Virus record (IMG/VR): IMGVR_UViG_3300047163_000118
Location: 1 to 28,669 of that record
Length of the DNA stretch: 28,669 bases
Origin: a virus
Reading direction: 5' to 3' (one strand)
In this document: in pieces, positions 7,444 to 28,570 of the stretch
How positions within the stretch are numbered: the stretch's first letter is position 1
How the letters are laid out: each line of letters starts with the position of its first letter
Notes under the pieces: generated by a model
What the model was told of the DNA's origin: nothing
The model's input: only the letters and a program-made list of their open reading frames with translations
Databases searched by the model: none
Translations under genes and position numbers: made by a program

Positions 7444-7467
7444 CTAGCCGCACGCCACCATCAGGCC
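7444..7467 (+). promoter_or_regulatory. CTAGCCG start-associated element, site 1
   Basis: CTAGCCG at 7444-7450 is followed 17 bases later by GTG 7468. No Shine-Dalgarno sequence is visible. GCC-ACCATCA-GGC (7454-7466) forms a short inverted repeat, and CAC (7451-7453) could extend it by pairing with the GTG start. The stop codon region upstream also makes TAGGGC-G-GCCCTA. Confidence 0.55.
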
Positions 7468-7833
7468 GTGCAGACCTTCCCGGCCCGGCGTGTGGCCACC
7501 GTCGACGACCTCGAGCGGCCCGGCGACTACTGCGCCACCCAGGAGCTCGACGCCGACGAGCGGCCGACCGGCCGGGGGGTGTGGTTCATCCTGCCGACCG
7601 CCGACCCCGGCCAGCCGCTGAAGGTGTTCCCTGACCGGGCGACGGACCGGGCCGGGTGGGCGGCGCTGCGGCGCAACGGCCGCCACCGGGTCGCCGAGCC
7701 GCCATGGCAGATCCGGGACTGCCCCGACGGGTCGATCGAGATCCGGGAGTCGATCGCCTGCGGCCGCGGCGATCCCGAGGGCGAGTACTTCCACGGCTAC
7801 CTCGACGCCGGCAACGTCTGGAGGGTCCTCTGA
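7468..7833 (+). CDS. Hypothetical protein upstream of portal
   Basis: A 121-residue protein from GTG 7468. Features are an N-terminal PGDYCATQELDADERPTGR segment, a middle rich in Trp, Arg and Pro, and an end reading EYFHGYLDAGNVWRVL. That ending, with SIACG before it, is a pattern I have seen in small phage proteins of this neighbourhood, but I cannot name a function. No membrane segment or Cys ribbon is present. The TGA overlaps the portal ATG (TGATG), so they are coupled. It has no Shine-Dalgarno sequence and depends on the CTAGCCG element region for its start. Confidence 0.6.
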   Translation: MQTFPARRVATVDDLERPGDYCATQELDADERPTGRGVWFILPTADPGQPLKVFPDRATDRAGWAALRRNGRHRVAEPPWQIRDCPDGSIEIRESIACGRGDPEGEYFHGYLDAGNVWRVL

Positions 7834-9191
7834 TGCACGTGCAGGCCGCCACCGGGGAATCCGTCGACGTCTCGAAGCGGGGCTGGCCGCTCGCGGGCAC
7901 CAACTACCAGTCGGAGTACTCCCAGAGCTGGGCCGGGCTGCGGATGGGGGCCCTGCCGACCGGCGAGTCACGGATCCTGTCTCTGCGCCGGATCTACAAG
8001 GGCAACCCGTGGGTGTACGGGATCGTGAACATGATCGCCAACGGCCTCGCCGGCTTCCCGATCCGGGTGACCGACTGGGGGCCGTCCGGTCAGCGCCGGC
8101 CCGTCCGGGGTGATCTGCCGCAGACCCGGCCCGGGCCTCCGTCGGCGCTGCAGCAGCTCGACTTCCGGCTCAACCATCCCGCCCCGAGGATCTCGAGGCG
8201 GCGGACGGTCCGGCGGGCGATGATCGACAAGCTGGTGTACGGAAACGGCATGTGGGTCAAGGAAGGCGACGGGTACGGCGGGCTGGCCGGCCTGTGGCAC
8301 ACCCCGTGGCGGACGGTGGCGGTGATCGCCGGTGTCAACCAGCCGATCGTCGGCTACCGGGCGATGGGTTTCGCCGGCACGAAGGTCTTCGACCTGTCCG
8401 AGGTTGTCCACTTCGGGGAGGGCGACCCGGACGCCCCGATCTCGCCGTCGCCGCTCGAGTCGCTGCAGTATACGATCGCCCTGATGGACGCCATGTCGCG
8501 GCATCTCGTCGGCTTCTTCCAGAACCAGGCCCGCCCGTCCGGGGTCCTGAAGATGTCCCAGATGCCGCAGGAGGACGAGCTCAACCTGCTGCGCGAGCAG
8601 ATCAAGCAGCTGTACACCGGCCCGGAGAACGCCGGCGTGCCGCTGATCACCTCGGGGGACTGGTCGCCGATGAACGGCGGCAGCTCCTACGCCGACCTGG
8701 TGGAGCTCGCCCGCCTGTCCCGGGAGGAGGTGTGTGGCGCCTACAACGTGCCGCCGCCGGTCGCCGGGATCCTCGACAAGGCGATCAAGTCGAACGTCGA
8801 GGAGCTCCGGGAGCAGTTCCTGCGCGACGTTCTGGCCCCGACCGGCACCGAGTTCACCGACGAGATCGTCGCCCAGATCGTCGACCCGGCACCGCAGTGG
8901 GCCGGTGCGGGCTGCGGGTTCGACATGTCCGACCGGCTGCTCCCGGACCTCGAGGCCCTGGCCGTGGCGTTCAAGGAGCTGAAGCGGGTGGCGACTCTGA
9001 ACGAGCTGCGCCGGATGATGCGTCTCGAGGACCTCGATTTCGAGTGGGCGAACCAGCCGTGGATGGAGCCCGGGTCGCTGCCGGCCGGTCTGGCGCCGCA
9101 GGGGGCGACGATCAGCCCTGACAGCGGGACCGGCGAGGAGGAGGACGACGACCCGGGTTCGCCGCCGCTCGACGACGAGGACGACGACTGA
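7833..9191 (+). CDS. Portal protein (HK97 type)
   Basis: A 452-residue protein from ATG 7833, overlapping the previous stop. It shows the HK97-type portal layout: LRRIYKGNPWVYGIVNMIANGLAG early (helices before the wing), the hydrophobic strand block with DKLVYGNGMWVKEG, and the FDLSEVVHFGEGDPDAPISPSPLESL segment. RPSGVLKM, then DWSPMNGGSSYADLVELARL and YNVPPPVAGILDKAIKSNVE in the stem region, are family hallmarks. The dodecameric portal forms the vertex through which DNA enters and leaves and which docks terminase and the connector. The C-terminus is acidic and disordered (EEEDDDPG...DDEDDD), which is common. Confidence 0.93.
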   Translation: MHVQAATGESVDVSKRGWPLAGTNYQSEYSQSWAGLRMGALPTGESRILSLRRIYKGNPWVYGIVNMIANGLAGFPIRVTDWGPSGQRRPVRGDLPQTRPGPPSALQQLDFRLNHPAPRISRRRTVRRAMIDKLVYGNGMWVKEGDGYGGLAGLWHTPWRTVAVIAGVNQPIVGYRAMGFAGTKVFDLSEVVHFGEGDPDAPISPSPLESLQYTIALMDAMSRHLVGFFQNQARPSGVLKMSQMPQEDELNLLREQIKQLYTGPENAGVPLITSGDWSPMNGGSSYADLVELARLSREEVCGAYNVPPPVAGILDKAIKSNVEELREQFLRDVLAPTGTEFTDEIVAQIVDPAPQWAGAGCGFDMSDRLLPDLEALAVAFKELKRVATLNELRRMMRLEDLDFEWANQPWMEPGSLPAGLAPQGATISPDSGTGEEEDDDPGSPPLDDEDDD

Positions 9192-9212
9192 CCGTAGGGC
9201 CGTGAGGCTGCT

Positions 9213-9237
9213 CTAGCCGGATCCGACCCTGTCGGCC
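9213..9237 (+). promoter_or_regulatory. CTAGCCG start-associated element, site 2
   Basis: CTAGCCG at 9213-9219, then 18 bases to ATG 9238, with no Shine-Dalgarno sequence. A perfect five-pair inverted repeat, CCGAC-CCT-GTCGG, lies at 9223-9235, directly before the start. GGCT at 9206-9209 can also pair with AGCC of the motif. Confidence 0.6.
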
Positions 9238-10380
9238 ATGGAGCACGCGAAGCGCCGGATCCGGATGCAGGTCCGGGCGACCCCCGAAGACGGCGAAGGC
9301 ACCTTCACGGCCAAGGTGTCGACCTACAACCTCGAGTACGACGTCGGCTGGGCGTGGACCGAGATCATCCTGCCCGGCTGCTTCACCGACTCCATCTCCG
9401 CCCACCCCACCATCCCGATCTTCTACAACCACAACTGGTCCGGGGCGCCGATCGGATCCGGCAAGCCGTCCGAGGACGGCGACAACCTGACGGTCTCCGG
9501 CCGGCTGTACCTCGAGATGGGCGACCCGCTCGTCGCCCGGGTCTACCAGGCCATGAAGGACGAGGCCCTCGAGGAATGGTCGATCGGGTTCTGGCCGGAG
9601 GTCATCGTCAACGACCAGGACAAGAAGATGTGCGACCAGATCCAGAAGGGCGATCTGGCCGAGGCCTCCGTCTGCGTGCGGGGCGCGAACCCTGACACCG
9701 GCACCATCGACCTGGCCGGCCGGGTGGCCTATATCGCCGGCGACCAGAAGGCCCGCGACCGTGAGGTCGCCCGGCTCAGGTCGCTGTTCGGTGGCCCGGG
9801 CCGCCGGCGTGCGGGGGGAGCGTACGAGCCGGAGCCGTACCGGCAGGACGGCGACGAGCTCGTGGTCTGCCCCAAGTGCACGAAACGGAACGACAGCGAC
9901 GCCGGCTGGTGTGACCAGTGCGGCTACAACCTGCATCTCGTGGGATGGCGGCCGGCGCCGTACCATCAGGACGTCGACGAGGTGGTGACCTGCCCGACCT
10001 GCGGGTTGAGAGACGACGTCGACGCCAGCTTCTGCGACCAGTGCGGCTTCGAGCTCGCCGGAGCCGAGGACGTGGACGTCGACGATGACGTCGACGAGGA
10101 GGCGGCAGGCCGTCGGCGTGCCGCAGGTCACAGCCACCAGCACACCCATGACGACGGGACCGTGCACGCCCACGACCACACCCACTCCGGCGGGAACTAC
10201 GGCCACGACGCCTCCGACCCCGAGGTCACCCACGCCCACAGCCACCCCGACCCGGAGCCGCCGCCGTCCTCTGAGGATCCCGGCCCCGACGAGAACGACC
10301 GGGCCCGGGCCGACCGGGCGTTCGACTCACCGCACTGGCGGGACTATGCCGCCGGAATACTCAAGGAGCGCCGCCCGTGA
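9238..10380 (+). CDS. HK97-type prohead protease with zinc-ribbon and His-rich C-terminal extension
   Basis: A 380-residue protein. Residues 1 to about 165 are the S78/U35 prohead protease: ILPGCFTDSI, IPIFYNHNW with the catalytic His65, then EEWSIGF with the nucleophile Ser115, and an ending LAEASVCVRGANP. Normally this domain is followed by a short acidic tail. Here two consecutive zinc ribbons follow (Cys211, 214, 225, 228 and Cys252, 255, 266, 269, each C-x2-C...CDQCG). An Asp-rich linker, a histidine-rich stretch (HSHQHTHDD, HAHDHTH, THAHSH) and a charged helix complete it. The enzyme matures capsid proteins, cutting the delta domain. The extension may serve as a scaffold or bind metal; that part is inference. 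Confidence 0.9.
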   Translation: MEHAKRRIRMQVRATPEDGEGTFTAKVSTYNLEYDVGWAWTEIILPGCFTDSISAHPTIPIFYNHNWSGAPIGSGKPSEDGDNLTVSGRLYLEMGDPLVARVYQAMKDEALEEWSIGFWPEVIVNDQDKKMCDQIQKGDLAEASVCVRGANPDTGTIDLAGRVAYIAGDQKARDREVARLRSLFGGPGRRRAGGAYEPEPYRQDGDELVVCPKCTKRNDSDAGWCDQCGYNLHLVGWRPAPYHQDVDEVVTCPTCGLRDDVDASFCDQCGFELAGAEDVDVDDDVDEEAAGRRRAAGHSHQHTHDDGTVHAHDHTHSGGNYGHDASDPEVTHAHSHPDPEPPPSSEDPGPDENDRARADRAFDSPHWRDYAAGILKERRP

Positions 10381-11378
10381 ACCTGTTCGCCCTCGCCGCC
10401 CGCCGCTACATCGAGTCCGAGACCTACCAGAAGTGCCGGGCCGCGGCCGACGGCAACACCGGCCGACTGGCCCGGGCCCTCCAGGAAGCCGGGCCCGTCC
10501 CGGTCCTCGACAACGCCGAGCTCCGCCAGGCGCTGTCGCTGCGGACCTTCTCGAACCTGTACCCGTTCTCGATCGACGGGAAGGCCTACGCCGGCGAGCT
10601 GCCCGGCGCCGTGAACGTCCCCCAGGCCGTCGAGACCATCGCCTCCGAGAAGATGCAGGTGGAGCTCGGCGCCGAGACCTCCGAGTCGATCCTGGCCACC
10701 GCCGTGCCGACCGGCACCCCGCTCCCGGAAGGCCAGATCAACGCCGGCGCAACCCCGACCCTCCAGGTCCTCAACCGGTTCGGGGTCGCCCTGCCCGTCG
10801 CCCTCGGCGTGCTCGACAACCCCGGCCAGATGGCCAGTTTCCTCAACCGGCGCATCGAGCTCGGCCTCAACCTCGGCCTCGAGAACGACATCCTCAACGG
10901 CAACCAGATGTGGACCGGGGCCATAGCGTCGGTGCCGGGCGGCAACACCGTCGCCAAGAGCGCCGGCTACAACGTCGACGCCCTGACCAACGCCCTCGCC
11001 GACGTCCTCAACGCCGGCTGGTACGCCCGGCCGCCGCAGATCGTCACCTGGCCGACCTCCAAGGCGAAGGTGTTCCTCGAGCGGGACAGCTCGGCCCGGC
11101 CGCTCGGCATCATCGAAGTCCTCAAGGACTGGGTCGACCCGGCCAGCGAGGGCCGCCAGCTGATCATCCCGTCGAAGTTCATGCCGGCCGGCCAGGCCCT
11201 CATCGGCGACCTGTTCGGGGCCATCGCCCTGTTCGTCCACGGCGACCTATCCGTCGAGGTGTCCCGAGTCCATCTCGACTTCCTGGGCCGCAGCATGGCC
11301 GAGATGAAGCTCGAGTTCCGGGCGCACTCGTGGGTGCGGGAACCGTCCGCGCTGGCGCTCGTCACTGGCATCGCCTGA
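10377..11378 (+). CDS. HK97-fold capsid protein, first copy (no delta domain)
   Basis: A 333-residue protein from GTG 10377, overlapping the protease stop. It lacks the long N-terminal coiled coil of HK97 precursors and begins near the fold itself. VNVPQAVETIASEKMQVELGAE, a P-domain-like helix (NRRIELGLNLGLENDILNG) and a C-terminal stretch (VEVSRVHLDFLGRSMAEMKLEFRAHSWV...ALALVTGIA) match the end of HK97-fold capsids. Its ending is clearly related to that of the next gene (HLDFxxRxM...L...VTGI/L). Two capsid proteins may divide hexon and penton positions, or one may be a minor head protein. The next start is preceded by a CTAGCCG element. Confidence 0.78.
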   Translation: MNLFALAARRYIESETYQKCRAAADGNTGRLARALQEAGPVPVLDNAELRQALSLRTFSNLYPFSIDGKAYAGELPGAVNVPQAVETIASEKMQVELGAETSESILATAVPTGTPLPEGQINAGATPTLQVLNRFGVALPVALGVLDNPGQMASFLNRRIELGLNLGLENDILNGNQMWTGAIASVPGGNTVAKSAGYNVDALTNALADVLNAGWYARPPQIVTWPTSKAKVFLERDSSARPLGIIEVLKDWVDPASEGRQLIIPSKFMPAGQALIGDLFGAIALFVHGDLSVEVSRVHLDFLGRSMAEMKLEFRAHSWVREPSALALVTGIA

Positions 11379-11384
11379 TCCGCT

Positions 11385-11410
11385 CTAGCCGCCCCCGACC
11401 ATTCCGACCC
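11385..11410 (+). promoter_or_regulatory. CTAGCCG start-associated element, site 3
   Basis: CTAGCCG at 11385-11391, then 19 bases containing CCGACCATTCC to ATG 11411. That ATG opens an eight-residue ORF (MNQHLREA, 11411-11437) that overlaps the start of the second capsid gene. The inverted repeat seen at other sites is weak here. Confidence 0.5.
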
Positions 11411-11437
11411 ATGAACCAGCACCTCCGGGAGGCGTGA
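11411..11437 (+). CDS. Possible eight-residue leader peptide
   Basis: ATG AAC CAG ... GCG TGA encodes MNQHLREA. It starts where the CTAGCCG element predicts a start and its TGA overlaps the capsid ATG 11437, so it could couple ribosome entry to capsid translation. GGGAGG inside it is the capsid's own Shine-Dalgarno sequence. It may equally be chance. Confidence 0.25.
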   Translation: MNQHLREA

Positions 11438-12894
11438 TGGACCAGGACCTGAAGCTGTCGATCGTCGGCGACCGTCTCGCCTGGGTCACCCCGGCCGGGA
11501 AGGTGTTGCCGTGGGTCCGCGGCGGCGAAGGCCCGACCGCCACCATCGAGTCCGAGATCGCCGAGCTGCGCGGCCTGATCTCCTCGACCGAGGAAGAGGC
11601 CCGCCAGATCAAGGAGGCCGTCGACGCCGACCGGGACCGGCTGCGGGCCGAGGGCGTCAACCTGCTCGTTGACTCCCGTTTCGAGGAGTTCGACGCCCGC
11701 TACAAGGAGGCCGACCTCAAGAAGGACCAGGCCGTCCAGATGCGCGGCCGTCTCGAGGCCGCCCTCACCCGGATGGCCGCCGAACGCGGTGTCATCCCCC
11801 CCGGCGGCGACAAGGCTCTCTCCCGGGCCGAGCGCCGCGAGTTCGAGTCGATCGCCAAGCGGTTCCTGCGCTCCGACACCTACAAGCGGCTGCGGGAATC
11901 CGGCAGCCTGGCCGCGGCCGGCACCCACTTCGCCACCGACCCCGTCGAGGTCCTCGAGCGGGGCGGCTGGAACGACGAGACCGGCCAGATGGACTCGCCG
12001 CTCATCCGGGCGCTGCAGACCCGCACCACGGTCAACGTCGGCGACGCCGGCGCCGTCGTGCCGATCGACCAGCAGGTGTGGCCGCCGGTCATCATCCCGG
12101 TCCGGCAGGTGCAGCTCCTCGACCTGATCTCCATGCGGACCACCGAGTCCGACATGGTCAACTTCGTGCAGCAGTCGGTCCGGTCCGACTACGCGGCCGA
12201 GACGCCGTACGGCACCGCCGCACCCGAGGCCGACTACGAGTTCGCTCTCAAGCAGGCGTCGGTCAAGCGGATCCCGCAGTTCATCCCGGCCACCAAGGAC
12301 GTCCTCGCCGACCAGGGGCAGCTGCAGGGAGTCCTGCAGGACCTGCTGATGGCCGGCGTCCGGCTGAAGCTCGAGACGCAGATCCTCACCGGCGGCGGCT
12401 CCAGCTTCACCGACACCTCGATCCAGGGGATGCTCAACGCATCCGGGATCGGGTCGGTGACCTACCAGTCGTCCGGGCACACCTCCGAGTACCAGCTCGA
12501 CGTCACCCACCGGGCCATCACCACCATCCGGCTGACCCTGTTCTCGGACCCGACCGCGGTGGTCACCCACCCGACCGACTACGAGTGGGCCGTCCTGAAG
12601 AAGGACAGCTACGGCCGGTACATCTTCGACCCCGACACCGAGGCCGACGTCAAGAGCCTGTGGGGCCTGCAGACCGTCGTGTCGCCGGTCATCGCCCAGG
12701 GCACGCAGTTGGTCGGCGACTTCAAGCAGGCCGCCGCCCTGTGGATGCGCACCGGCCTGTCGGTCACCGCCTCGACCGAGCACCTCGACTTCTTCACTCG
12801 CGGCATGGTCGCCATCCTCGCCGAGCTGCGGGCGGCGTTCGCGGTGCTGCAGCCCCGGGCGCTCTGCCAGGTCACCGGGCTCACCGGCCCCTGA
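11437..12894 (+). CDS. HK97-fold major capsid protein, second copy with delta domain
   Basis: A 485-residue protein from ATG 11437 with GGGAGG four bases upstream; GTG 11434 is in frame but too close to that site. Residues about 25-110 form a long charged coiled coil (EIAELRGLISSTEEEARQIKE, EFDARYKEADLKKDQAVQMRG), the delta or scaffolding domain removed by the protease. The fold follows: VPIDQQVWPPVIIPVRQVQLLDLI, an E-loop segment, QFIPATKDVLADQGQLQGVL, QILTGGGSS, NASGI and the P-domain/A-domain end HLDFFTRGMVAILAELRAAFAV. It is the best candidate for the main shell protein. Its C-terminus resembles that of the preceding gene, which points to an old duplication. Confidence 0.92.
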   Translation: MDQDLKLSIVGDRLAWVTPAGKVLPWVRGGEGPTATIESEIAELRGLISSTEEEARQIKEAVDADRDRLRAEGVNLLVDSRFEEFDARYKEADLKKDQAVQMRGRLEAALTRMAAERGVIPPGGDKALSRAERREFESIAKRFLRSDTYKRLRESGSLAAAGTHFATDPVEVLERGGWNDETGQMDSPLIRALQTRTTVNVGDAGAVVPIDQQVWPPVIIPVRQVQLLDLISMRTTESDMVNFVQQSVRSDYAAETPYGTAAPEADYEFALKQASVKRIPQFIPATKDVLADQGQLQGVLQDLLMAGVRLKLETQILTGGGSSFTDTSIQGMLNASGIGSVTYQSSGHTSEYQLDVTHRAITTIRLTLFSDPTAVVTHPTDYEWAVLKKDSYGRYIFDPDTEADVKSLWGLQTVVSPVIAQGTQLVGDFKQAAALWMRTGLSVTASTEHLDFFTRGMVAILAELRAAFAVLQPRALCQVTGLTGP

Positions 12895-12912
12895 TAGGAG
12901 GAGATCCGCTCG

Positions 12913-13338: not shown

Positions 13339-13341
13339 CCC

Positions 13342-14514: not shown

Positions 14515-14519
14515 GTGAT

Positions 14520-14542
14520 CTAGCGTTCCGTAAAGGTCGGGC
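14520..14542 (+). promoter_or_regulatory. CTAGCGT start-associated element, variant site 4
   Basis: GATCTAGCGT replaces GATCTAGCCG at 14517-14526, then 16 bases to ATG 14543. CCG...CGG flanks TAAAGGT. It precedes the broken endonuclease gene. It is the only variant of the heptamer among the eight sites. Confidence 0.4.
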
Positions 14543-15034
14543 ATGTGCTCGATCGAGGGATGTGAGAAGCCGCTGGTGGCCCGGGGCTACTGCGGGATGC
14601 ATTACCGGCGGTGGCGGGTCAACGGCGACCATTGATCGCCCGAGTCCCGGTGGTCATCGCCGAGGACGGATCAAAGCGGTGCACGAGCTGCTCGCGCACC
14701 CTGCCAGCGGACAGCTTCCACCGGAACCGCCGAAACCGTGATGGCCGAGGCGTCTGGTGCCGCTCATGCCACGCAGCCTGGCACGAGCAGCTGCGGCGGC
14801 TCCAGGAGGGTCGATGCGCTATCTGCCGGGTCGAGTCGATGCGCTATCTGCCGGGTCGAGCTCGGGCCGATCGGCAAGTTCTCGGTCGATCACGACCACC
14901 AGACCGGGGCCGTCCGCGGCCTCTTGTGCCAGAAGTGCAACCACGGTCTGGCGATGCTCTCGGACGGCCCCGAAGGACTCCAGAGCGCGCTCCGGTACCT
15001 GAGGCGGCCACCGGCCCGGCTGGTTCGGCTCTAG
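14543..15034 (+). pseudogene. Broken HNH / recombination endonuclease VII gene
   Basis: Three frames together spell one typical phage endonuclease. Piece 1 (14543-14635) is MCSIEGCEKPLVARG followed by YCGMHYRRWRVNGDH and a stop. Piece 2 (from TTG 14632, or GTG 14611 in the same frame) gives IAEDGSKRCTSCSRTLPADSF and a CRSC knuckle up to GRCAICRVE. Piece 3 continues LGPIGKFSVDHDHQTGAVRG, LLCQKCNHGLAM and ends at TAG 15034. The DHDH and C-x2-C...C-x2-C residues of endonuclease VII are all present. Piece 2 to 3 is broken by a perfect 25-bp tandem duplication (14811-14860). Adding one C near 14630 would join piece 1 to 2 as GDPLIARV. As it stands the second frame runs on without homology to 15093. 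It is a free-standing endonuclease inserted in the structural block. Confidence 0.8.
14811..14860 (+). repeat. Perfect 25-bp tandem duplication causing a frameshift
   Basis: The same 25 bases occur at 14811-14835 and 14836-14860, encoding the CAIC knuckle twice in different frames. Removing one copy restores the endonuclease VII frame. GGGTCGA lies at both ends of the unit, a microhomology that allows slippage. Confidence 0.92.
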
Positions 15035-15054
15035 CCGCCTCCGACCATCACGGC
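15031..15054 (+). promoter_or_regulatory. CTAGCCG start-associated element, site 5
   Basis: CTAGCCG at 15031-15037 is part of CGGCT-CT-AGCCG, a near-perfect palindrome. It is followed by CCG-ACCATCA-CGG (15041-15053) and, 17 bases after the heptamer, by GTG 15055. That GTG opens a 12-residue ORF (MLIHVIERTCRG) overlapping the next gene's start. The TAG in the heptamer is also the stop of the broken endonuclease. Confidence 0.55.
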
Positions 15055-15093
15055 GTGCTGATCCACGTCATCGAAAGGACCTGCCGTGGCTGA
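15055..15093 (+). CDS. Possible twelve-residue leader peptide
   Basis: GTG 15055 to TGA 15093 encodes MLIHVIERTCRG and overlaps the next gene's GTG 15086 by eight bases. Like the short ORF before the second capsid gene, it starts at the distance set by a CTAGCCG element. It may be a coupling leader or chance. Confidence 0.25.
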   Translation: MLIHVIERTCRG

Positions 15094-15879: not shown

Positions 15880-15890
15880 GGAGGTAGCCC

Positions 15891-17105: not shown

Positions 17106-17108
17106 GCC

Positions 17109-18159: not shown

Positions 18160-18174
18160 TTCCGGCCGAATATC
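18153..18174 (+). repeat. 22-bp sequence, inverted copy of 4922-4943
   Basis: CCGATGATTCCGGCCGAATATC is the reverse complement of 4922-4943 with one mismatch. It spans the end of the gp10-like gene and the gap before the tape measure gene. A nine-residue ORF (MIPAEYLAL, 18156-18185) is also encoded across it. Confidence 0.5.
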
Positions 18175-18197
18175 TCGCCCTGTGATGAGGTGACCGC

Positions 18198-21080
18198 GTG
18201 GCTGACAAGGAGCTGAAGGCCAAGTACGTCGTCGCCTACGACGGCGCGGGAGCGAAGGCCGCACAGAAGGGCATGTCCGACCTGGACAAGTCGGCCAAGA
18301 CGATGTCGGACAGCTTCGACAAGCACACCTCGGCGATCGGCGGGATGTTCTCGAGCTTGTCTTCGACGATGGCCGGCTTCGGGCTGCCGTTCACCGGGTC
18401 GCTTGATCGAATGTCGCAGCATCTCGACCAGGCGAAGTCGTCGGGGAAGGGTTACGGGCAGGTGCTGTCCGACCTCGGCGGGGCGACGCTCTTGACCTTG
18501 GGCGGCGGGTTCATCGCCGTCGGCGGCGAGTCGTTGAAGATGGCCGCGAACTTCCAGGAGTCGATGACCCAGCTGGTCACCGGCGCCGGCGAATCGGAGG
18601 CAGGCCTGAAGGTCGTCTCGCAGGGGATCTTGGACATGGCCGGGCAGGTGGGGGAGTCGACCTCGCAGCTGGCGCAGGGCATGTACATGATCGAGTCGGC
18701 CGGCTACCACGGCGCGGCCGGCCTCAACGTGTTGAAGGCGTCGGCGGAGGGGGCGAAGGTCGGGAACGCCGACCTGCAGACCGTCGCCGACGGTGTCACC
18801 ACCCTGCTCACCGACTACAAGATCCCGGCGTCGGAGGCGGCGACGGTCACCTCCAAGCTGGTGGAGACCGTGGCGTCGGGGAAAACGAAGATGCAGGACC
18901 TGGCCGGCGCGCTCGCCCAGGTCGCCCCGGCGGCCTCGGCCGCACATGTCGACATGAACCAGCTGCTCGGGGCGATGGCGACCATGACCGCGGCGGGGAC
19001 GCCGGCCGCCGACGCCGCCACCCAGCTGAAGCAGACGATCCTGCAGCTGTCGAACCCGTCGGCGAAAGCGAAGACCGAGATGCAGTCGCTCGGCCTGAAC
19101 GCCAACGACGTCTCCCAGAACCTCGGCAAGCGCGGCCTGACCGGCACCTTCGATCTGCTCACCCAGGCCATCGCCGCTCACACCTCCGGCGGCACGGTGC
19201 TGATCCAGCAAATGCAGAAAGCGGCGGCCGCCGGGTCGGGCTGGCAGACCGAGCTGGCCCGGATGACCCCGGTCCAGCAGGCCCAGATCGACACTCTCGC
19301 CGGGCAGGGTCAGGCGATGGAGCAGTACAAGCTGGAGATGGCTTCGCTGACACCGGCGCAGCGCAGCCTGGTGACGGCGATGGAGAACGGGGCGACGGGC
19401 ACCAAGACGTTCAAGGCAGCGTGGGAGCAGCTGGCCCCGGCCCAGCAGCAGCAGATCAGTCAGCTGGCCGGCGGAGCGAAAGCGTTCGCCGAGTACAACG
19501 CCCAGGTGGCGGCCCTGCCCGCCGCCTACAAGAAGGTGTTGGCCGGGGCGACGGCCTCGAAGGAAGGCTACAAGGATCTGACGACCACGATCGCGGCGTT
19601 GCCTCCGGTCGAGCAGACCCAGATCGGCGCTCTGGCCGACATGGTCGGCGGCACCAAGAGCATGCAGGCGGCGCTCGAGCTGACCGGGTCGTCGGCGTCC
19701 ACGTTCCGGGCGAATGTCGGGACGATCTCGAAGGCGTCGGCGGACTCGAAAGGCAACGTGCAGGGCTGGTCGACCGCGCAGAAGGACCTCAACGTCCAGC
19801 TCGACCAGGCCAAGGGGACCGCCGAGAAGCTGGGGATCGAGTTCGGCACGAAGCTGATCCCAGTCGTGGAGCATCTGATGAACGACACCATCGCGACGAT
19901 CGGGTGGTTCGAGAAGCACAAGGACGCCGCCTACGCCCTGGCCGCGGTGATCGGCGGGGCCCTGTCGGTCGCGGTCGGCGCCTTCGCTGTCAACAAGGTC
20001 GTGTCGATGGTCAAGGGGGTGCAGCAGGCGGCGTCGGCGATGGGCGACTTCGCCGGCAAGGTCGGTTCGAGCGCCACGACGGTGCTGGAGAAGTTCGGGG
20101 TCATCGGGACGGGTTCGGATGAGATGGCCGCCAAGGTCGAGGCTGACACCAAGGGTATGGCCGCCTCGGTCGAGGCCGACACCACGGCGATGGCGTCGCA
20201 GGCGGAGGCGTCGGTGGCCGGGATGGACGCGTCGGCGTCGGCGTCGGCGTCGGGGATGGAGGCGAAGGTGTCGGCGTCGGCCGCCGGCATGGAAGCGAAG
20301 GTGTCGGCCGATGCGGGGGCGATGGCCGCCAAGGTCGACGCGGCCACCGCGGGGATGGAAGCGACGGTGTCCGGTGACACCGCTGCGATGGAGGCCCGGG
20401 CGGGCGGAGCTGCCGCGGGGATGGAGGCGAAGGTGGTCGGCTCCGCTGAGGGGATGGCCGCCCAGACCAAAGCGGCTGTGGGCGGCATGACGGGGGCGGT
20501 CGACGCCGACGTGGCGGCCATGGACTCCACTGTCGCCGCGGGGGCTGCGTCGGCCGAATCGAGCATCGCGGGGGCGGAGGCGGCGGCTGGGGCGACGCCG
20601 GGGGTCGGTCAGGCGGCCATGGCGGTCCTGGGAGCCCAGTATGCCGGCTACCAGGCCGGCCAGTACTCCCAGAAGAACCAGGGGACGCTGGGCGGTTCGG
20701 TCGCCGGCGGCGTCGGAGCTGTCCTCACTCCCGGGGCGTCGCTGCTCGGCCAGACCGGCGCGTCGATCTCCGACATCCTCCACTTCAAGATCCCGCACCT
20801 GGCCGAGGGCGGGCTGGTGACGAAACCGACGTTGATGGTCGCCGGCGAGTCCGGCCAGGAAGCCGTCGTCCCCCTGGGGAACCTGTCCACCGAACAGCCC
20901 GGCGGCCTGCCGGGCGGCATGTTCGGCGGCGCCGGAGGCGCCCAGGTGGTCAACATCTCACTGGTCGTCGGAGGCCCCGTCTTCAACTGGGAGGACTTCG
21001 CCCGCCAGGCCATGCCGGCAATGCGGAACGCCCTCATGATGCGCTCCCAGGTCGGCGGGACGTCCACCCTGACGCTGTGA
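18198..21080 (+). CDS. Tail tape measure protein
   Basis: A 960-residue protein from GTG 18198 with TGAGG upstream. The first 230 residues are TP901-type (DLDKSAKTMSDSFDKH, then TLGGGFIAVGGES, FQESMTQLVTGAGESEAGLK, MAGQVGESTSQLAQGMYMIE). An Ala/Gln helical zone with imperfect repeats of LTPAQRSLV type (about 350-490) follows, with a hydrophobic segment near 575-600. Residues 642-784 are thirteen perfect-length 11-residue repeats (GMEAKVSASAA type). The end has the common HLAEGGLVTKPTLMVAGESG. It sets tail length and is threaded in the tube with the chaperones; known scaling (about 0.15 nm per residue) suggests a tail near 140 nm. No peptidase domain is obvious. Confidence 0.95.
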   Translation: MADKELKAKYVVAYDGAGAKAAQKGMSDLDKSAKTMSDSFDKHTSAIGGMFSSLSSTMAGFGLPFTGSLDRMSQHLDQAKSSGKGYGQVLSDLGGATLLTLGGGFIAVGGESLKMAANFQESMTQLVTGAGESEAGLKVVSQGILDMAGQVGESTSQLAQGMYMIESAGYHGAAGLNVLKASAEGAKVGNADLQTVADGVTTLLTDYKIPASEAATVTSKLVETVASGKTKMQDLAGALAQVAPAASAAHVDMNQLLGAMATMTAAGTPAADAATQLKQTILQLSNPSAKAKTEMQSLGLNANDVSQNLGKRGLTGTFDLLTQAIAAHTSGGTVLIQQMQKAAAAGSGWQTELARMTPVQQAQIDTLAGQGQAMEQYKLEMASLTPAQRSLVTAMENGATGTKTFKAAWEQLAPAQQQQISQLAGGAKAFAEYNAQVAALPAAYKKVLAGATASKEGYKDLTTTIAALPPVEQTQIGALADMVGGTKSMQAALELTGSSASTFRANVGTISKASADSKGNVQGWSTAQKDLNVQLDQAKGTAEKLGIEFGTKLIPVVEHLMNDTIATIGWFEKHKDAAYALAAVIGGALSVAVGAFAVNKVVSMVKGVQQAASAMGDFAGKVGSSATTVLEKFGVIGTGSDEMAAKVEADTKGMAASVEADTTAMASQAEASVAGMDASASASASGMEAKVSASAAGMEAKVSADAGAMAAKVDAATAGMEATVSGDTAAMEARAGGAAAGMEAKVVGSAEGMAAQTKAAVGGMTGAVDADVAAMDSTVAAGAASAESSIAGAEAAAGATPGVGQAAMAVLGAQYAGYQAGQYSQKNQGTLGGSVAGGVGAVLTPGASLLGQTGASISDILHFKIPHLAEGGLVTKPTLMVAGESGQEAVVPLGNLSTEQPGGLPGGMFGGAGGAQVVNISLVVGGPVFNWEDFARQAMPAMRNALMMRSQVGGTSTLTL
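20121..20549 (+). repeat. Thirteen 33-bp (11-residue) repeats in the tape measure gene
   Basis: Each unit starts Gly/Ala/Glu-Met and follows G-M-E-A-K-V-S-A-D/S-A-A. Copies differ at many bases, so this is a protein-level repeat under selection for an 11-residue (hendecad) coiled-coil period rather than a fresh DNA expansion. Confidence 0.85.
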
Positions 21081-23014
21081 CCCTCCCGCAGCTGTCAGTC
21101 CGCGTCGCGTTCGGTTCGAACCCGCTCGACCCGACCCTCACCTGGACCGAGATCGGCCCGGCCTCCGGCGCCGGCCCCGGCAGCAAAGGTTGGGCCCGCA
21201 AGATCACCACCAAACGGGGCCGGGAACGGCTGCTGCGCACCCGGGTCGGGTTCCAACCGGGCACGGCCACCGTCGCCCTCGACAACCGGGACCGCCGCTT
21301 CGACCCCACCAACACGGCCGGCCCGTACTGGCCGAACGTGCAGCCCGAGAAGGTCATCCAGGTCGGCGCAACCTGGTCGGGCACGTTCTACCCGATCTGG
21401 ACCGGCTACGTCGACGACTGGCCGCAGGCGTGGCCAGGGTTCTCCGAGGCAGAGACAGCGGTGGCGGCCACCGACTACTTCAAGGCGCTGTCAATCGTGC
21501 GGGTCCTGTCGTCGGGCTACCCGAAGCAGGTCCTCGCCGACGGCGCCACCGGGTATTGGCGGCTCGGTGACGCCGTCGGATCCGCCCAGGCGGCCGACTC
21601 GGCCGGCACCAACCCGGCCACCATCCTCACAGCCGCCGGTCCCGTAGCCTTCGGCAACTCGCCGCTCCTGGTCGGCCTTCCCGCCACCTCGGCACTCGTT
21701 AGTTCAAACACCAGCGGCTTGTACTCAGGCTTCCAGGCCCGCCAGTTCGGCACACCGTCGTCAGCGAGTGGTGTCACCGTCGAATGGTGGGCGCAGCCGG
21801 GCAGCAACTCCGAGATGAACACGATTCTGCCCATGAAGTTCGGCAGCAGCACCTATGCCGCCTTCCTCATCGCCCGGTCCGCCACCCAGATCGAGATCGG
21901 CGACTGGGGTGCCGGCGCCATCGTCTACGCCACCACTCCGAACACCCAGGACGGCAACCCACACCACTTCGTCTTCGCTATCAACACAGCCTGGGCCTAC
22001 GTCCTATACATGGACGGCGTGTCCGTCGTTTCCGGCACAATCGGCGGAGGGCTCACCCCCCTCGCAGCAGTCAATATCCCAGCCCCGCAGATCAACGCCT
22101 ACAGCTTCTCCGGAACCGCCACTATCGCCTTCCAGGAATGGGCGATCTACCCCGTCGCTCTCTCCAACATCCAGGCGGCCAACCACTACTACCTCGCCGC
22201 CTTCCGGGCCCAGTACACCGGCCAGTACATCACCCAGGTCCTCGAGAACTGGCTCGGCTACCCCTCCAGCCGATCGAGCATCGCCACCGGCTACACCTAC
22301 TGCCAGGCCGACACCCAATCCGAGTTCAACACCAAGGCCATCGACTTCCTGCAGAAACTTGAGCAGACCGAACAAGGGCAGCTGTACGTCGCCGCCGACG
22401 GCACCCTCGTCTTCCAGGACCGCTACCACCGCTACACCAACCCGAACCTCACCCCGCAGGCCACCATCGGCGACGGAGGCAGCGCCTACCCCGCCGAGAT
22501 CCCGTTCGCCATGGGAGGCGTCACCCTCAACTTCGACCGCGTCGAGCTCTTCAACGACATCGCCTGCACCCGCCGCGGCGGCTACGTCCAAGAAGCCACC
22601 AACCCGGCGTCGATCACCGCCTACGGCAACCGCGGCGACCAGGGCCTCACCGACCTCCTCATGGCCGCCGACGTCGACGCCCTCTACTGCGCCCAGTGGG
22701 TCCTCGCCGACACCGCATACCCGCAGTTCCGGGTCGGCACGCTCGTCATCGACCCCCGCGTCGACGACCGCTGGTGGCCCGTCATCCTCGGCCTCGACAT
22801 CGGCGCCGTCGTCACCGTCAACAAGCACAACATCCCCGGCGGCGGCGCCGCCGTGTCGCTGGTCTGCCGGATCGAAGGCATCGAACATCAGATCGACCCG
22901 CCGAACCAGTGGATCACCACCTGGCACGTGTCGCTGATGGGCACCCAGCCGTGGCTGATCCTCGACGACCCCGTCACCGGCCTCCTCGACTCCGGCAACC
23001 GGTGGGGCTGGTAG
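21077..23014 (+). CDS. Minor tail protein with LamG-like domain (distal tail type)
   Basis: A 645-residue protein from GTG 21077, overlapping the tape measure stop. The first 150 residues, with LTWTEIGPASG, RKITTKRGRERLL, GTATVALDNRDRRFDPTN and YPIWTGYVDDW, are the conserved start of actinophage minor tail proteins (distal tail/baseplate hub side). Residues about 155-380 form an inserted concanavalin/LamG-like domain (GYWRLGDAVGSAQAADSAG, VTVEWWAQPG, HHFVFAINT). This fold binds carbohydrates in many phages. The C-terminal part resumes the hub fold (EQGQLYVAADGTLVFQDRYH, LVIDPRVDDRWW). It probably helps attach to the host surface. The two-part outer fold with insertion is common in this class. 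Confidence 0.82.
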   Translation: MTLPQLSVRVAFGSNPLDPTLTWTEIGPASGAGPGSKGWARKITTKRGRERLLRTRVGFQPGTATVALDNRDRRFDPTNTAGPYWPNVQPEKVIQVGATWSGTFYPIWTGYVDDWPQAWPGFSEAETAVAATDYFKALSIVRVLSSGYPKQVLADGATGYWRLGDAVGSAQAADSAGTNPATILTAAGPVAFGNSPLLVGLPATSALVSSNTSGLYSGFQARQFGTPSSASGVTVEWWAQPGSNSEMNTILPMKFGSSTYAAFLIARSATQIEIGDWGAGAIVYATTPNTQDGNPHHFVFAINTAWAYVLYMDGVSVVSGTIGGGLTPLAAVNIPAPQINAYSFSGTATIAFQEWAIYPVALSNIQAANHYYLAAFRAQYTGQYITQVLENWLGYPSSRSSIATGYTYCQADTQSEFNTKAIDFLQKLEQTEQGQLYVAADGTLVFQDRYHRYTNPNLTPQATIGDGGSAYPAEIPFAMGGVTLNFDRVELFNDIACTRRGGYVQEATNPASITAYGNRGDQGLTDLLMAADVDALYCAQWVLADTAYPQFRVGTLVIDPRVDDRWWPVILGLDIGAVVTVNKHNIPGGGAAVSLVCRIEGIEHQIDPPNQWITTWHVSLMGTQPWLILDDPVTGLLDSGNRWGW

Positions 23015-23016
23015 GT

Positions 23017-23040
23017 CTAGCCGCCCAGCATGGTGGCCCG
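23017..23040 (+). promoter_or_regulatory. CTAGCCG start-associated element, site 6
   Basis: CTAGCCG at 23017-23023, then 17 bases to GTG 23041. CCA-GCA-TGG lies between and GGCT precedes the motif by seven bases. There is no Shine-Dalgarno sequence except a weak GGTGG. Confidence 0.55.
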
Positions 23041-23496
23041 GTGATCCTGGCCGCAGAGGACCGCCACTACCCGACCCCCGACCATCCCGAGCACACCCCG
23101 CCCGAGACGGTCGTGCACCGCTTCTGGCGGCACAAGCTCGGCGAGGTATCGGCCCCGCAGGTCGGCCAACCGAAGGGGGAGTGGCCGGCCGGCGTCCACG
23201 ACACCGTCGCGGCCGTGGCCTACGTGAACCACGGCCGGTGGGTCGTCGACTGCCCGTTCGGATGCGGGTCCGCCCAGATGGCCTCCCGGTCGGACCGCCG
23301 GTTCTTCTGCGTCGAGTGCGGCCACCGAGGCGACGGCCGGTGGCTGCCCGTCGTGTGGCCGTCCGACCTCGAGGTCCAGACCGTCGAGGCCGTCCTCGAC
23401 GCCCGGCCCGACATGGCCACCCGCAACTGGCGGCCCGGCGAGCCGATCGACGCCCTCGTCGCCGAGAACGCCGGCCACGGGCTGGCGCCCGCCTGA
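23041..23496 (+). CDS. Zinc-ribbon protein in the tail module
   Basis: A 151-residue protein from GTG 23041. After a His/Pro-rich lead (HYPTPDHPEHTPPETVVHRF) there is a central four-Cys ribbon: CPFGCG, then FFCVECG some 15 residues on, with VVDCPFG and GDGRWLPV around it. The rest is acidic. I do not recognise a named family. It lies between the minor tail protein and a fibre-like protein, which suggests a tail tip or assembly role, but ribbon proteins here may also be regulatory. The stop overlaps the next ATG (TGATG). Confidence 0.6.
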   Translation: MILAAEDRHYPTPDHPEHTPPETVVHRFWRHKLGEVSAPQVGQPKGEWPAGVHDTVAAVAYVNHGRWVVDCPFGCGSAQMASRSDRRFFCVECGHRGDGRWLPVVWPSDLEVQTVEAVLDARPDMATRNWRPGEPIDALVAENAGHGLAPA

Positions 23497-23945
23497 TGGC
23501 CTGGACCACTCCTCGTACGTGGACCGTGGGGGCCGCCGGCACCGCGGCGGATCTGAACACCTACGTGCGGGACAATACGAGCTTCCTGTACGGCGACGTC
23601 GGCTGGACGGCCCTCACGTTGCAGTCCGGCTGGGCGACCACCTCCGGGTGGCCTGCATTGGCTGTGCGGCTGTCGAACAACCGAGTGTCATTCCGGGGCA
23701 GGGTGTCGAACACGACCCTTGCTTGCACGGCCGGCGCCCGCTACCAGATCGCCACGCTGCCCGCCGGCTACGCCCCGCCGAACCGGACGTCGATCCCGGC
23801 CGTCTTCCAGATTGCCGGCGCCGCCTCATATGGGGGGTCGATCGTCGACATCCAGTCGAGCACCAACCTCGGCTTCTACAGCCCCTCCGCCGGCACCGGC
23901 GTCGTAGCGCAGTTCGACGGCCTGTCGTTCGACATCGTCAGCTGA
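23496..23945 (+). CDS. Tail fibre-like / minor tail protein
   Basis: A 149-residue protein from ATG 23496, overlapping the previous stop. It opens MAWTTPRTWTVGAAGTAADLN, then TYVRDNTSFLYGDVGW, a start shared by many phage receptor-side proteins. The rest is beta-rich with Gly and Ser (LQSGWATTSGWPALAVRLSN, NRVSFRGRV, RYQIATLPAGY), ending in a short C-terminal strand set (VVAQFDGLSFDIVS), as in trimeric fibre tips. It is shorter than full fibres, so it may be a tip or a decoration. Host-surface binding is likely but inferred. Confidence 0.72.
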   Translation: MAWTTPRTWTVGAAGTAADLNTYVRDNTSFLYGDVGWTALTLQSGWATTSGWPALAVRLSNNRVSFRGRVSNTTLACTAGARYQIATLPAGYAPPNRTSIPAVFQIAGAASYGGSIVDIQSSTNLGFYSPSAGTGVVAQFDGLSFDIVS

Positions 23946-23972
23946 GCCCGCGGGAAGGGCCATCGAGCCCAC

Positions 23973-24000
23973 CTAGCCGTCTAGCCGGCCTCCACCATCA
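23973..24000 (+). promoter_or_regulatory. Double CTAGCCG start-associated element, site 7
   Basis: Two heptamers in tandem, 23973-23979 and 23981-23987, lie before GTG 24001 (13 bases from the second; GTG 24007 is 19 bases away). CCAC-CATCA-GTGG (23992-24004) forms a stem that includes the GTG. There is no Shine-Dalgarno sequence. Confidence 0.6.
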
Positions 24001-24756
24001 GTGGCAGTGACAATCTGCCCATTCGCCGTCTGGCGGCCCGTCCCTTCCTACTCCGGGCCGCTCTCCGCCCACCAAGGCCTCGTCGTGCACGTCCAGGTCG
24101 GCACCGGCTCCTGCTACGGCGAGTTCTCCAACCCCGCCAACCAGGCGTCCTCGACATGGTGGATCGGTGTCGACGGCACCCTCGAGCAGTACGTCGACGC
24201 CGACATGACCGCCTGGACCGAGATGGCCGGCAACCCCTACTACGACAGCGTCGAAACCGAAGGCACCCCCGACCAGCCGTGGACCGACGCCCAGCAGGCG
24301 ACCCTCGCCCGGCTCATCGCCTGGGGGCATCAGACGTTCGGGTGGCCGCTCGCCCTCGTCGACCACGGCGGCAGCGGCATCACCACCCACGCCCACTACC
24401 CCTCCGGCGTCCCCGACGACGCCTGGGGCGGCCACCCCTGCCCGGGCCCGGTCCGTACCGCCCAGCTCCCCTCCGTCCTCGCCGCCGCCGTGGCCATCGT
24501 CGACCCCCGCCCCGTCTCCGCCACCGCAGCAACCGTCCCGGCCCCGCCGGCCGTGCCCCAAGGGAGAACCATGAAAGCCGTCCTGCACTCCGACACCCAG
24601 CAGCTCCTCCTCCTCGACGACGAGACCGTCGTCCCGATCAAGACCCCGGGCACCGGCGCCTATCTCACCCAGCCGGCCCCGCAAGGGCTCGGCCTGCCGT
24701 ACTGGGGGCCGATCGACGACGGCACCCTCGCTGGGTTCCGCCGCGCCGCCGGCTGA
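24001..24756 (+). CDS. N-acetylmuramoyl-L-alanine amidase endolysin
   Basis: A 251-residue protein from GTG 24001. Residues 1 to about 165 are an Amidase_2/PGRP domain: LVVHVQVG with the zinc ligand His30, then WWIGVDGTLEQYVDADMTAW, then THAHYPS near 129-135 and GHPCPG with His145 and Cys147 as the other ligand region. A Pro/Ala linker and a short C-terminal part (MKAVLHSDTQQLLLLDDETV) of unknown binding function follow. It would cut the bond between muramic acid and L-alanine in host peptidoglycan. There is no signal peptide, so it needs a holin or a similar route, and several membrane proteins follow. There is no lysin B in the window. Confidence 0.88.
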   Translation: MAVTICPFAVWRPVPSYSGPLSAHQGLVVHVQVGTGSCYGEFSNPANQASSTWWIGVDGTLEQYVDADMTAWTEMAGNPYYDSVETEGTPDQPWTDAQQATLARLIAWGHQTFGWPLALVDHGGSGITTHAHYPSGVPDDAWGGHPCPGPVRTAQLPSVLAAAVAIVDPRPVSATAATVPAPPAVPQGRTMKAVLHSDTQQLLLLDDETVVPIKTPGTGAYLTQPAPQGLGLPYWGPIDDGTLAGFRRAAG

Positions 24757-24760
24757 CCCG

Positions 24761-25090
24761 GTGAGCGAATCGGCGGAGGCCTACCATCGGGCGGCCGACT
24801 CGGTCGAGGCGACGAACCGGCGGGTCGAACGGTTCATCGTCATCGGCGGAGCCGCCCTGTTGGCCGTGGCGATAGTCGTGATCATCTGGGGGGCGGTCAG
24901 TTTCGGGTCGGCGATCCAGACCGTCAAGGACCGCCAGGTCCAGTTCCACAACGACACCACCCGCTCCGACGCCGTGCTCACCTGCGAGACGCAGGCCCTC
25001 GACGAGATCCTCACCGAGCTCGGCGCCGCCCAGATAGCCCAGTCCCGACATCTGCCGGCCCCGCAGTTCGTGTTCCCGAAACCATGCTGA
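24761..25090 (+). CDS. Single-pass membrane protein of the lysis module
   Basis: A 109-residue protein from GTG 24761, three bases after the amidase stop. A polar, partly helical N-terminus (AYHRAADSVEATNRRVE) precedes one strong membrane segment (FIVIGGAALLAVAIVVIIW). The rest is soluble and ends in a Cys after PKP. The layout could be a holin partner or a spanin-like protein, and the C-terminal part would face outside if the N-terminus is in. No family is recognised. It overlaps the next gene's start by seven bases. Confidence 0.6.
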   Translation: MSESAEAYHRAADSVEATNRRVERFIVIGGAALLAVAIVVIIWGAVSFGSAIQTVKDRQVQFHNDTTRSDAVLTCETQALDEILTELGAAQIAQSRHLPAPQFVFPKPC

Positions 25091-25476
25091 CCGCGGCGTC
25101 CCAGCTCACCTCGGCGGAGATCCTCGGGACCCTCGGAGGGATCGTCACCCTGATCGGAGCGGCGGCCGCCGGTATCGCCTACTTCCGGGCGCGGGCCGGC
25201 CAGACCACCGGCAACCTGCAGTCCCAGGCGATCGACGCCCTCGAAGGCCAGCTCCACGCCTCCGACCGCCAGATCGAGGAGCTCAAGCAGACCGCCCAAC
25301 GGCAGCAGGAAACTATCGGCGACCTCCGCGACCAGGTCCAGGTCCTCCAGGAGCTCGTCACCCAGACCGCCAAGGTCGATCTGCTCCGCAAGGAAGTCGA
25401 CGAAGGGTTCAACAAGGTGCTCGCCGCTATCGGCGCGGATGGGGGCAAACGTGAAGGTCCTGATCGTCGAGGATGA
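25084..25476 (+). CDS. Membrane-anchored coiled-coil protein (holin or spanin candidate)
   Basis: A 130-residue protein from ATG 25084, overlapping the previous gene. One membrane segment (ILGTLGGIVTLIGAAAAGIAYF) is followed by a long charged helix with heptads (LEGQLHASDRQIEELKQTAQ, then RQQETIGDLRDQVQVLQ and VDLLRKEVDEGF). It ends in a basic disordered tail. This matches the one-TM plus coiled-coil proteins found beside endolysins in actinophages, which are thought to be spanin-like or class-III-like lysis proteins. The response regulator start lies inside its end. Confidence 0.6.
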   Translation: MLTAASQLTSAEILGTLGGIVTLIGAAAAGIAYFRARAGQTTGNLQSQAIDALEGQLHASDRQIEELKQTAQRQQETIGDLRDQVQVLQELVTQTAKVDLLRKEVDEGFNKVLAAIGADGGKREGPDRRG

Positions 25477-25807
25477 CCGCTCCGTCCGGAACCTGATCGC
25501 CGCCCTGTTCTCACTCGAGCACGGCTGGGAGACCACCGCGGCCGCCAACGCAGTCGACGCCTACACAGCCGTCGCCGCCGGCCGGTTCGACGTCATGGTC
25601 CTCGACCTGGCCTGCCCGGGCGAGAAGGCCGGCTGGAAGCTCCTCGAGACGTTCTCCGGTGTCCTGCCGACCGTCGTCGTGTCCGGCCACGTCGACAGCC
25701 CCCGCCTCCAGGACCGGGCGCTGCGCATGGGCGCCCGGGTCGTCATCGCCAAACCGTTCGACAACCGCTGCCTGTGCCTGGCGGTGGCCATGGCGGCCGG
25801 CCGGTGA
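25451..25807 (+). CDS. Single-domain response regulator (CheY-like receiver)
   Basis: A 118-residue protein. I choose GTG 25451, with GGGGG five bases upstream, because the domain starts exactly there (VKVLIVEDDRSVRNL); ATG 25439 would add four residues. All receiver positions are intact: acidic pair Asp8/Asp9, phospho-acceptor Asp52 in FDVMVLDL, Ser78 in VVVSGHVD and Lys101 in VIAKPFD. There is no output domain. A complete phosphorylatable receiver inside a lysis cassette is unusual. It might sense or sequester a host histidine kinase signal, or act as a regulator of lysis timing; both are inference. No kinase is in the window. The stop overlaps the next GTG. Confidence 0.9.
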   Translation: MKVLIVEDDRSVRNLIAALFSLEHGWETTAAANAVDAYTAVAAGRFDVMVLDLACPGEKAGWKLLETFSGVLPTVVVSGHVDSPRLQDRALRMGARVVIAKPFDNRCLCLAVAMAAGR

Positions 25808-26157
25808 AGCTCCGCCATCACGCCAGCCACGCCCTCCGGGGCCTCGCCGTCGGGGCCGCTGTCGCCGCGGCGGTCATCGGCACGGCGCTCGGGGTGTTCG
25901 TCGCCGCCTGGGGGTGGGCCCGGTTCCGGGCCGACTTCTGGCCGCTCGACAACTCCCGGGTCGGCCCGAACCTGGTGGCCAGCATCGTGCTCACCGTGCT
26001 CGTCATCGGCCACAACGAGTACCGGACGACGGTCCGGGCCGTGAAGGCCGGCGAGACCGTCCGCCAGCTCGCCCGCGACCTCGAGGCCGAAGTACTCCAT
26101 CCGGCCGAGACCGCCGAGCAGCACATCGCTGACGACGTCGCTCAAGACGGTTCATGA
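25804..26157 (+). CDS. Two-TM membrane protein, holin candidate
   Basis: A 117-residue protein from GTG 25804 (GTGA overlap). A basic N-terminus (KLRHHASHALRG) precedes TM1 (LAVGAAVAAAVIGTALGVFVA) and TM2 (NLVASIVLTVLVIGH), joined by a polar loop with a Trp pair. The C-terminus is charged and helical (DLEAEVLHPAETAEQHIADD). Two segments and a charged tail are class-II-holin-like. It directly follows the response regulator and may be its target by coupling. No function is proved by the sequence. Confidence 0.6.
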   Translation: MKLRHHASHALRGLAVGAAVAAAVIGTALGVFVAAWGWARFRADFWPLDNSRVGPNLVASIVLTVLVIGHNEYRTTVRAVKAGETVRQLARDLEAEVLHPAETAEQHIADDVAQDGS

Positions 26158-26167
26158 TTCATGAATC
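26156..26167 (+). promoter_or_regulatory. AT-rich 12-bp palindrome GATTCATGAATC
   Basis: A perfect palindrome starts at the stop of the previous gene in otherwise very GC-rich DNA, 22 bases before the next CTAGCCG element. It could be an operator. Evidence is composition and symmetry only. Confidence 0.3.
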
Positions 26168-26188
26168 GTGACTTGATCGCCGGCTGAT

Positions 26189-26212
26189 CTAGCCGGGCCG
26201 CACGCTGTGCCC
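26189..26212 (+). promoter_or_regulatory. CTAGCCG start-associated element, site 8
   Basis: CTAGCCG at 26189-26195, then 17 bases to ATG 26213. GCAC-GCT-GTGC (26200-26210) is a perfect four-pair inverted repeat directly before the start, and CGGCT-GATCT-AGCCG is a palindrome over the motif. There is no Shine-Dalgarno sequence. Confidence 0.6.
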
Positions 26213-28424: not shown

Positions 28425-28570
28425 TTGGTTCCCCCTCCGTGTCCGCCGCGACCGCCCGTCGGTCGTCGGTCGTCGGGCCAGGAGATTACCAGCGGGGAAT
28501 TGGAGAATGACGGCTCCTTTTTCGGGAGCGCGGTTATGCGGCAATTGAGTCCTGATCCGGAAGCTCGGGG

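Follow-up and report, generated by a model that had tools for sequence, protein, structure and literature searches.

The 28.7-kb viral record IMGVR_UViG_3300047163_000118 (28,669 nucleotides at 69.5% GC, the whole of which is called the window here) carries terminase, portal, protease, major capsid, tail, tape measure and endolysin genes on its plus strand and an integrase gene (27429-28544) on its minus strand. Scattered among the plus-strand genes, and on the same strand, we found nine copies of a bipartite element, CTAG-N9-ANNNT. The first (CTAGAACTCAGCG AACAT, 3962..3979) overlaps the end of a plus-strand gene for a WhiB-family transcription factor (3673..3984) and precedes the ATG at 3986, the start codon and putative +1 position of another plus-strand gene (3986..4528) whose product combines a helix-turn-helix (HTH) domain with a four-cysteine ribbon and is called HTH-Zn below. 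The second (7444..7461) is followed by the GTG at 7468 of a 121-aa gene, the third (9213..9230) by the ATG at 9238 of the head maturation protease gene, and the fourth (11385..11402) stands before the major capsid gene. A fifth copy (CTAGCGTTCCGTA AAGGT, 14520..14537) precedes an ATG at 14543 heading an HNH-type endonuclease reading frame, and a sixth (15031..15048) a tail-protein gene starting with GTG at 15086. The last three are found at 23017..23034, before the GTG at 23041 of a 151-aa gene conserved in the related contigs G001, G010 and G015; at 23981..23998, before the GTG at 24007 of the endolysin gene; and at 26189..26206, before the ATG at 26213 of a 175-aa gene.

When the sites are aligned on CTAG, the conserved unit is CTAG-N9-A-N3-T with rigid spacing, within the wider consensus 5'-GC[T/G]-CTAG-C[C]G-N5-S-A-Y-C-N-T-S-N5..7-RTG-3'; CTAGCCG, which an earlier note on this DNA had singled out as a recurrent motif ahead of gene starts, is only its left part. 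The coordinates in that note are exact, and its motif does recur, with nine plus-strand occurrences in the window where 2.6 would be expected (none of 100 shuffles gave as many), amid a scarcity of CTAG that it had also remarked upon (18 versus 31 expected). Its list of sites needs two amendments: the copy at 3962 (CTAGAAC..., no CCG) was missed, and 23973..23979 is an isolated plus-strand half-copy of CTAGCCG directly upstream of the endolysin element, with ANNNT not at the right distance. The bipartite pattern excludes this half-copy and a coding CTAGCCG at 3826, and its nine matches compare with an expectation of 1.34 +/- 1.15, a count of nine being reached in none of 100 shuffles. The A and T are in place at 9 of the window's 18 CTAGs (chance ~1e-10), a pattern picked after the sites had been seen, so that relatives of the phage provide the cleaner test.

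A DNA search against cultured relatives of the window phage returned zero matches, and its capsid and protease have only distant matches (<60%) in the phage collection. Related contigs were gathered via their terminase and capsid proteins, giving a set of 11 non-redundant phage contigs (367 kb, 196 CTAGs). The nearest provirus resides in Acidiferrimicrobium (terminase identity 72%) and a further one in a metagenome-assembled genome of Acidimicrobiaceae, indicating that the hosts of the element-bearing phages are probably Acidimicrobiia. The plus strands of the 11 contigs hold 73 sites at spacer 9, compared to a mean of 4.3 and a maximum of 12 at other spacers and to 5 sites on the minus strand. 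A matrix trained without the window placed seven of the nine window sites at ranks 1 to 7 across both strands of the window; the site at 3962 ranked 12th and that at 14520 fell outside the 16 listed. The earlier note's view of a recurrent element under selection and associated with starts is borne out, and a protein site had been among the options it considered. Across the phages it accompanies the same gene families, namely HTH-Zn, portal or the gene just before it, protease, capsid, tail proteins and lysin. The window and G001 have differing small genes between the element and portal, the RTG (ATG or GTG) of the element now starting that small gene, which indicates that the element keeps its place in the genome rather than its gene.

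The start codon lies at a near-constant distance from the element. An RTG is found 6, 7 or 8 nt past the T in 15, 42 and 7 of 72 sites respectively (64/72), with 0 to 3 sites at any other distance, and at 50 of the 72 it directly starts a gene of at least 75 aa. An RTG at 5 to 8 nt opens an open reading frame (ORF) of no more than 30 codons at 16 of the 72 sites; before capsid and tail-protein genes, relatives included, these ORFs have 6 to 13 codons and stop at or near a Shine-Dalgarno start. Chance would hardly put an RTG at +1 in these leadered sites so often (~1e-12). Only six sites lack an RTG, five of which then have a Shine-Dalgarno start ~29 to 42 nt downstream. In the window, every site listed in the earlier note is indeed followed by ATG or GTG at roughly the distance it gave, and the absence of Shine-Dalgarno sequences that it reported holds for most sites but not for the major capsid gene (site at 11385) or the 15086 gene (site at 15031). 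The real starts of these two genes lie ~26 to 31 nt beyond the motif-near RTG, behind GGGAGG and GAAAGG, and the motif-near ATG or GTG opens plus-strand mini-ORFs of 8 and 12 codons, both putatively leaderless. The first, MNQHLREA* (11411..11437), has its stop overlapping the capsid start (TGATG) and GGGAGG inside it; the second, VLIHVIERTCRG* (15055..15093), has its stop overlapping the start of the 15086 gene and GAAAGG inside it. In 400 kb of Acidiferrimicrobium chromosome, TANNNT is most frequent 6 to 7 nt ahead of candidate starts (6 and 10 versus ~1), a spacing equal to that of the RTG here, so ANNNT occupies the place that the -10 box has in leaderless genes of the host. As in sigma-70-type promoters, A and T stand at -11 and -7 with a start 6 to 8 nt on; T is rare at -12, occurring in 4 of 72 sites, and the 50 nt upstream of CTAG contain no conserved column (-50 to -5) that could represent a -35 box.

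The sequence statistics establish the element together with its spacing, its geometry and its distribution, and we consider it very probable that CTAG-N9-ANNNT makes up the core of a leaderless late promoter, specific to a family of Acidimicrobiia phages and placed ahead of their virion and lysis genes. ANNNT, with its A near -11/-12 and its T near -7/-8, would serve RNA polymerase carrying the host primary sigma factor as a degenerate -10 box, and transcription would begin at the R of RTG, so that most mRNAs would be leaderless. At the capsid and 15086 genes the +1 RTG would open the mini-ORF, whose translation is probably coupled to the Shine-Dalgarno start where it ends. This arrangement resembles actinobacterial leaderless promoters, including mycobacterial ones with RTG at +1, both in the -10-like box 6 to 8 nt before RTG and in the small coupled 5' ORFs, known in mycobacteria, that stop at the next start codon (PMC4633059). 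Unlike those promoters, the phage element has C or G for the -12 T, carries CTAG 9 nt upstream of the -10 A and is confined to phages. A factor that the phage encodes and that binds at CTAG (centre near -23) may substitute for the absent -35 box and the depleted -12 T.

The best candidate for such a factor is HTH-Zn, whose own gene usually lies under the same promoter, suggesting feedback. It possesses an HTH_17 domain of the BldC/Xis/MerR-like type, the four-cysteine ribbon and a long basic helix; the HTH domain matches BldC (3e-11) and phage Xis. An AlphaFold model (pLDDT 80, pTM 0.35) predicts a MerR-like HTH, and the best matches in the PDB are again BldC and phage Xis, at Foldseek E-values of 0.004 or worse. 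The ribbon and the long helix are not found in these matched structures. No homologue of HTH-Zn was found in the phage collection, and alignments of its HTH against the 296 genomes of the class recover mostly generic HTH_17 domains, with whole-length matches only in G010 and G012. The WhiB protein has a Pfam Whib match (7e-19), four cysteines and a G[IV]WGG motif, here EPDGIWGG, the longer form EP[DAE]G[IV]WGG being kept only in the window, G001, G011 and G015. In every one of the nine contigs that carry the element and extend over the region upstream of terminase, the two genes are neighbours there, and in seven of the nine the element lies directly upstream of the HTH gene, often overlapping the end of whiB (the position of the first window copy is matched in L029, L004, G010, G011, G015 and G017). 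HTH-Zn was not found among TerL relatives devoid of the element, a group that takes in L136 (51% identical) and six whole genomes of hosts carrying related proviruses; WhiB was found in L064 only. Phages of the window's clade mainly have T or C just before CTAG, and G003, G011 and G017 have G there, a change that is compatible with, though only suggestive of, a co-evolving reader. Based on synteny, co-occurrence and fold, we put the chance that HTH-Zn is the reader of CTAG, or part of it, at about even. The adjacent WhiB would probably act with it, by analogy with WhiB proteins that bind sigma-A region 4 (PMC6282962). A two-protein switch, in which WhiB on sigma-A region 4 makes a -35 box dispensable, HTH-Zn reads CTAG at ~-23 and host RNA polymerase is thereby re-aimed, is a tentative proposal that we hold to be somewhat less likely than not to be correct in full; under it, host RNA polymerase alone could not use the late promoters because the -12 T is missing.

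Outside the phages the element is sparse. The full element has 24 matches in a 5.1-Mb Acidiferrimicrobium genome, nine of them in one 22-kb provirus at ~180 to 202 kb of G010 C23, all on the plus strand, and the rest scattered; in a second host genome five matches share a strand of a single contig. In 400 kb of Acidiferrimicrobium chromosome, spacer 9 showed no excess. Across 148 Acidimicrobiales genomes a strict form of the pattern gives eight matches, below the reversed-pattern control, of which one is that provirus and seven are isolated, and a search of the same genomes for further proviruses by the element alone produced isolated matches in stretches without phage homologues. Matches in L047 look like a local repeat rather than promoters. 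The provirus clustering and the lack of chromosomal enrichment lead us to reject a host-wide promoter.

These scans also bear on the possibility that a host alternative sigma factor reads CTAG-N9-ANNNT and that the phage genes are merely in its regulon. The bipartite, sigma-type layout with fixed spacing would suit such a factor, and no sigma factor or RNA polymerase was recognised among the Pfam-scanned phage proteins, early regions being incomplete in several contigs. However, host chromosomes are not enriched, the strict matches in seven host genomes are unclustered, and the element stays alike in phages of ~54% to 70% GC whose hosts presumably differ, leaving this explanation improbable; for sigma-54 in particular, the consensus has CTAG and SAYCNT rather than GG at -24 and GC at -12. 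Slightly less probable still is that the copies are stoperator-like operators of a lysogenic or late repressor over ordinary promoters. Many copies on one strand, a CTAG adjoining the -10 box and an HTH protein that could repress are consistent with this, but copies occur almost only ahead of gene starts, and with the -35 box absent and the -12 T depleted such a promoter would have little strength unless activated. The reader may also be WhiB alone, with the promoter itself unchanged and HTH-Zn an excisionase, an option we regard as unlikely but the most serious of the alternatives. In its favour, WhiB adjoins the element and is present in all contigs covering the region, WhiB proteins bind sigma-A region 4 as noted above, and PHROGs groups HTH-Zn with excisionases. 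Set against this are the reported contact of WhiB7 just upstream of -35 and not at -23, the lack of an AT-hook in the window WhiB, the location of the HTH-Zn gene away from integrase, and the ribbon and long helix foreign to the matched BldC and Xis structures.

Explanations at the RNA level fare worse. An endonuclease cutting just before RTG could yield leaderless mRNAs from a transcript-processing site, as the near-constant distance to the start codon and the location of the genes in a single long late region might suggest. The spacing equals that of host -10 boxes, though, with the key A and T four apart and -10-like, the cut would have to float over 6 to 8 nt, and RNA structure is not conserved, making processing very unlikely. 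On the last point, the earlier note had proposed selection on paired arms between motif and start. Inverted repeats are visible by eye at some sites, but over 72 sites they hardly exceed column composition: the longest stem averages 3.60 pairs versus 3.39 +/- 0.11 after column shuffling (5% of shuffles reach it), and 10 sites have at least five pairs versus 7.6 (21% of shuffles reach it). Pairing is not clearly kept in relatives, so the hairpin or covariation idea fails, and a search for known RNA families found none. The CTAG-ANNNT spacer fixed at 9 nt, next to a start codon that floats and is at times missing, further contradicts a structural initiation signal. The same note had drawn a parallel to the start-associated sequences (SAS) of cluster K phages, which are likewise repeated, mostly in one orientation, right before many starts and kept by gene family (PMC3203893). 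Those are a 13-bp GGGATAGGAGCCC just before the start codon, a consensus different from the present one, and their extended form has a conserved inverted repeat that the phage element lacks; the start-proximal part here is -10-like and some copies have no start codon, and the parallel is not supported. A translation initiation signal of this type would account for the frequent RTG at 6 to 8 nt, mostly without Shine-Dalgarno sequences, but it requires mRNA upstream of RTG and does not explain why the element near portal holds its place whichever gene follows. Because sites without a start codon usually have a Shine-Dalgarno start further downstream, a leaderless late promoter is preferred, and a translation signal appears highly improbable.

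Several observations weigh against the promoter and its proposed readers. Incomplete contigs and the restriction to one clade are among the main limits; all contigs are metagenomic or proviral, and the promoter assignment is sequence-based. The host -10 peak is built on just 16 candidate starts, and G012 (50% GC) has a weak element and none ahead of its HTH gene. Because all phages with the element belong to a single clade, its joint occurrence with HTH-Zn and WhiB may reflect one or few evolutionary events. HTH_17 proteins also include excisionases, and WhiB may be unconnected with the promoter. Finally, CTAG at ~-25 to -22 would be no usual sigma contact and its flanks do not form the dyad of a MerR dimer site.

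MerR proteins bind between -35 and -10, about where CTAG lies. The core position would therefore fit a MerR-type promoter, but the -35 box and a dyad within a 19-20-bp spacer (-35 to -10) are lacking, the flanks being asymmetric. HTH-Zn shares the HTH_17 domain of the BldC, MerR and Xis winged HTH proteins and differs from them in its additional ribbon and helix. Activator-dependent late promoters are familiar from other phages, such as those served by P2 Ogr, Mu C and T4 gp55/gp33. Like these, the promoters proposed here would be dispersed and late, have no usual -35 box, serve virion and lysis genes and need small phage proteins; they differ in position (~-23), in sequence and in the candidate protein, a BldC-like HTH with a four-cysteine ribbon beside WhiB. 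We know of no description of late gene control in Acidimicrobiia phages, and a literature search did not find a paper on these promoters. The AATT direct repeats to which BldC binds head-to-tail (PMC6428758) are not evident in the element consensus.

As sequence alone defines the exact core and a pair of neighbouring candidate regulators, the question becomes open to reporter testing. The regulon would comprise ~7 to 13 promoters per well-covered genome, and the element can serve as a practical marker for such proviruses and for true start codons. The capsid and 15086 gene starts should be annotated in light of the coupled mini-ORFs, which suggest a viral way to join a leaderless to a Shine-Dalgarno start.

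Other features of the window were noted in passing. The 121-aa gene (7468-7833) between the second element and portal belongs to no known family, and its TGA overlaps an ATG at 7832 that is probably the portal start (TGATG overlap, GGAGGG ahead) in place of 7656. Within the HNH/endonuclease VII-like gene a perfect 25-bp tandem duplication (14810-14860) shifts the frame; this is either a broken gene or an assembly error. A gene after endolysin (25439-25807) encodes a stand-alone response-regulator receiver domain (Pfam 1.7e-15), and the very start of the record (18-160) has a 45-bp in-frame repeat of 3.2 copies in a coding region. Adjoining the integrase gene, GGGGGTTCGAGTCCCTCCCCCGGAGC (28615-28645) is a probable attP core: among 296 Acidimicrobiia genomes, one (L198) has a tRNA-Asn(GTT) gene whose 3' end is exactly this sequence.

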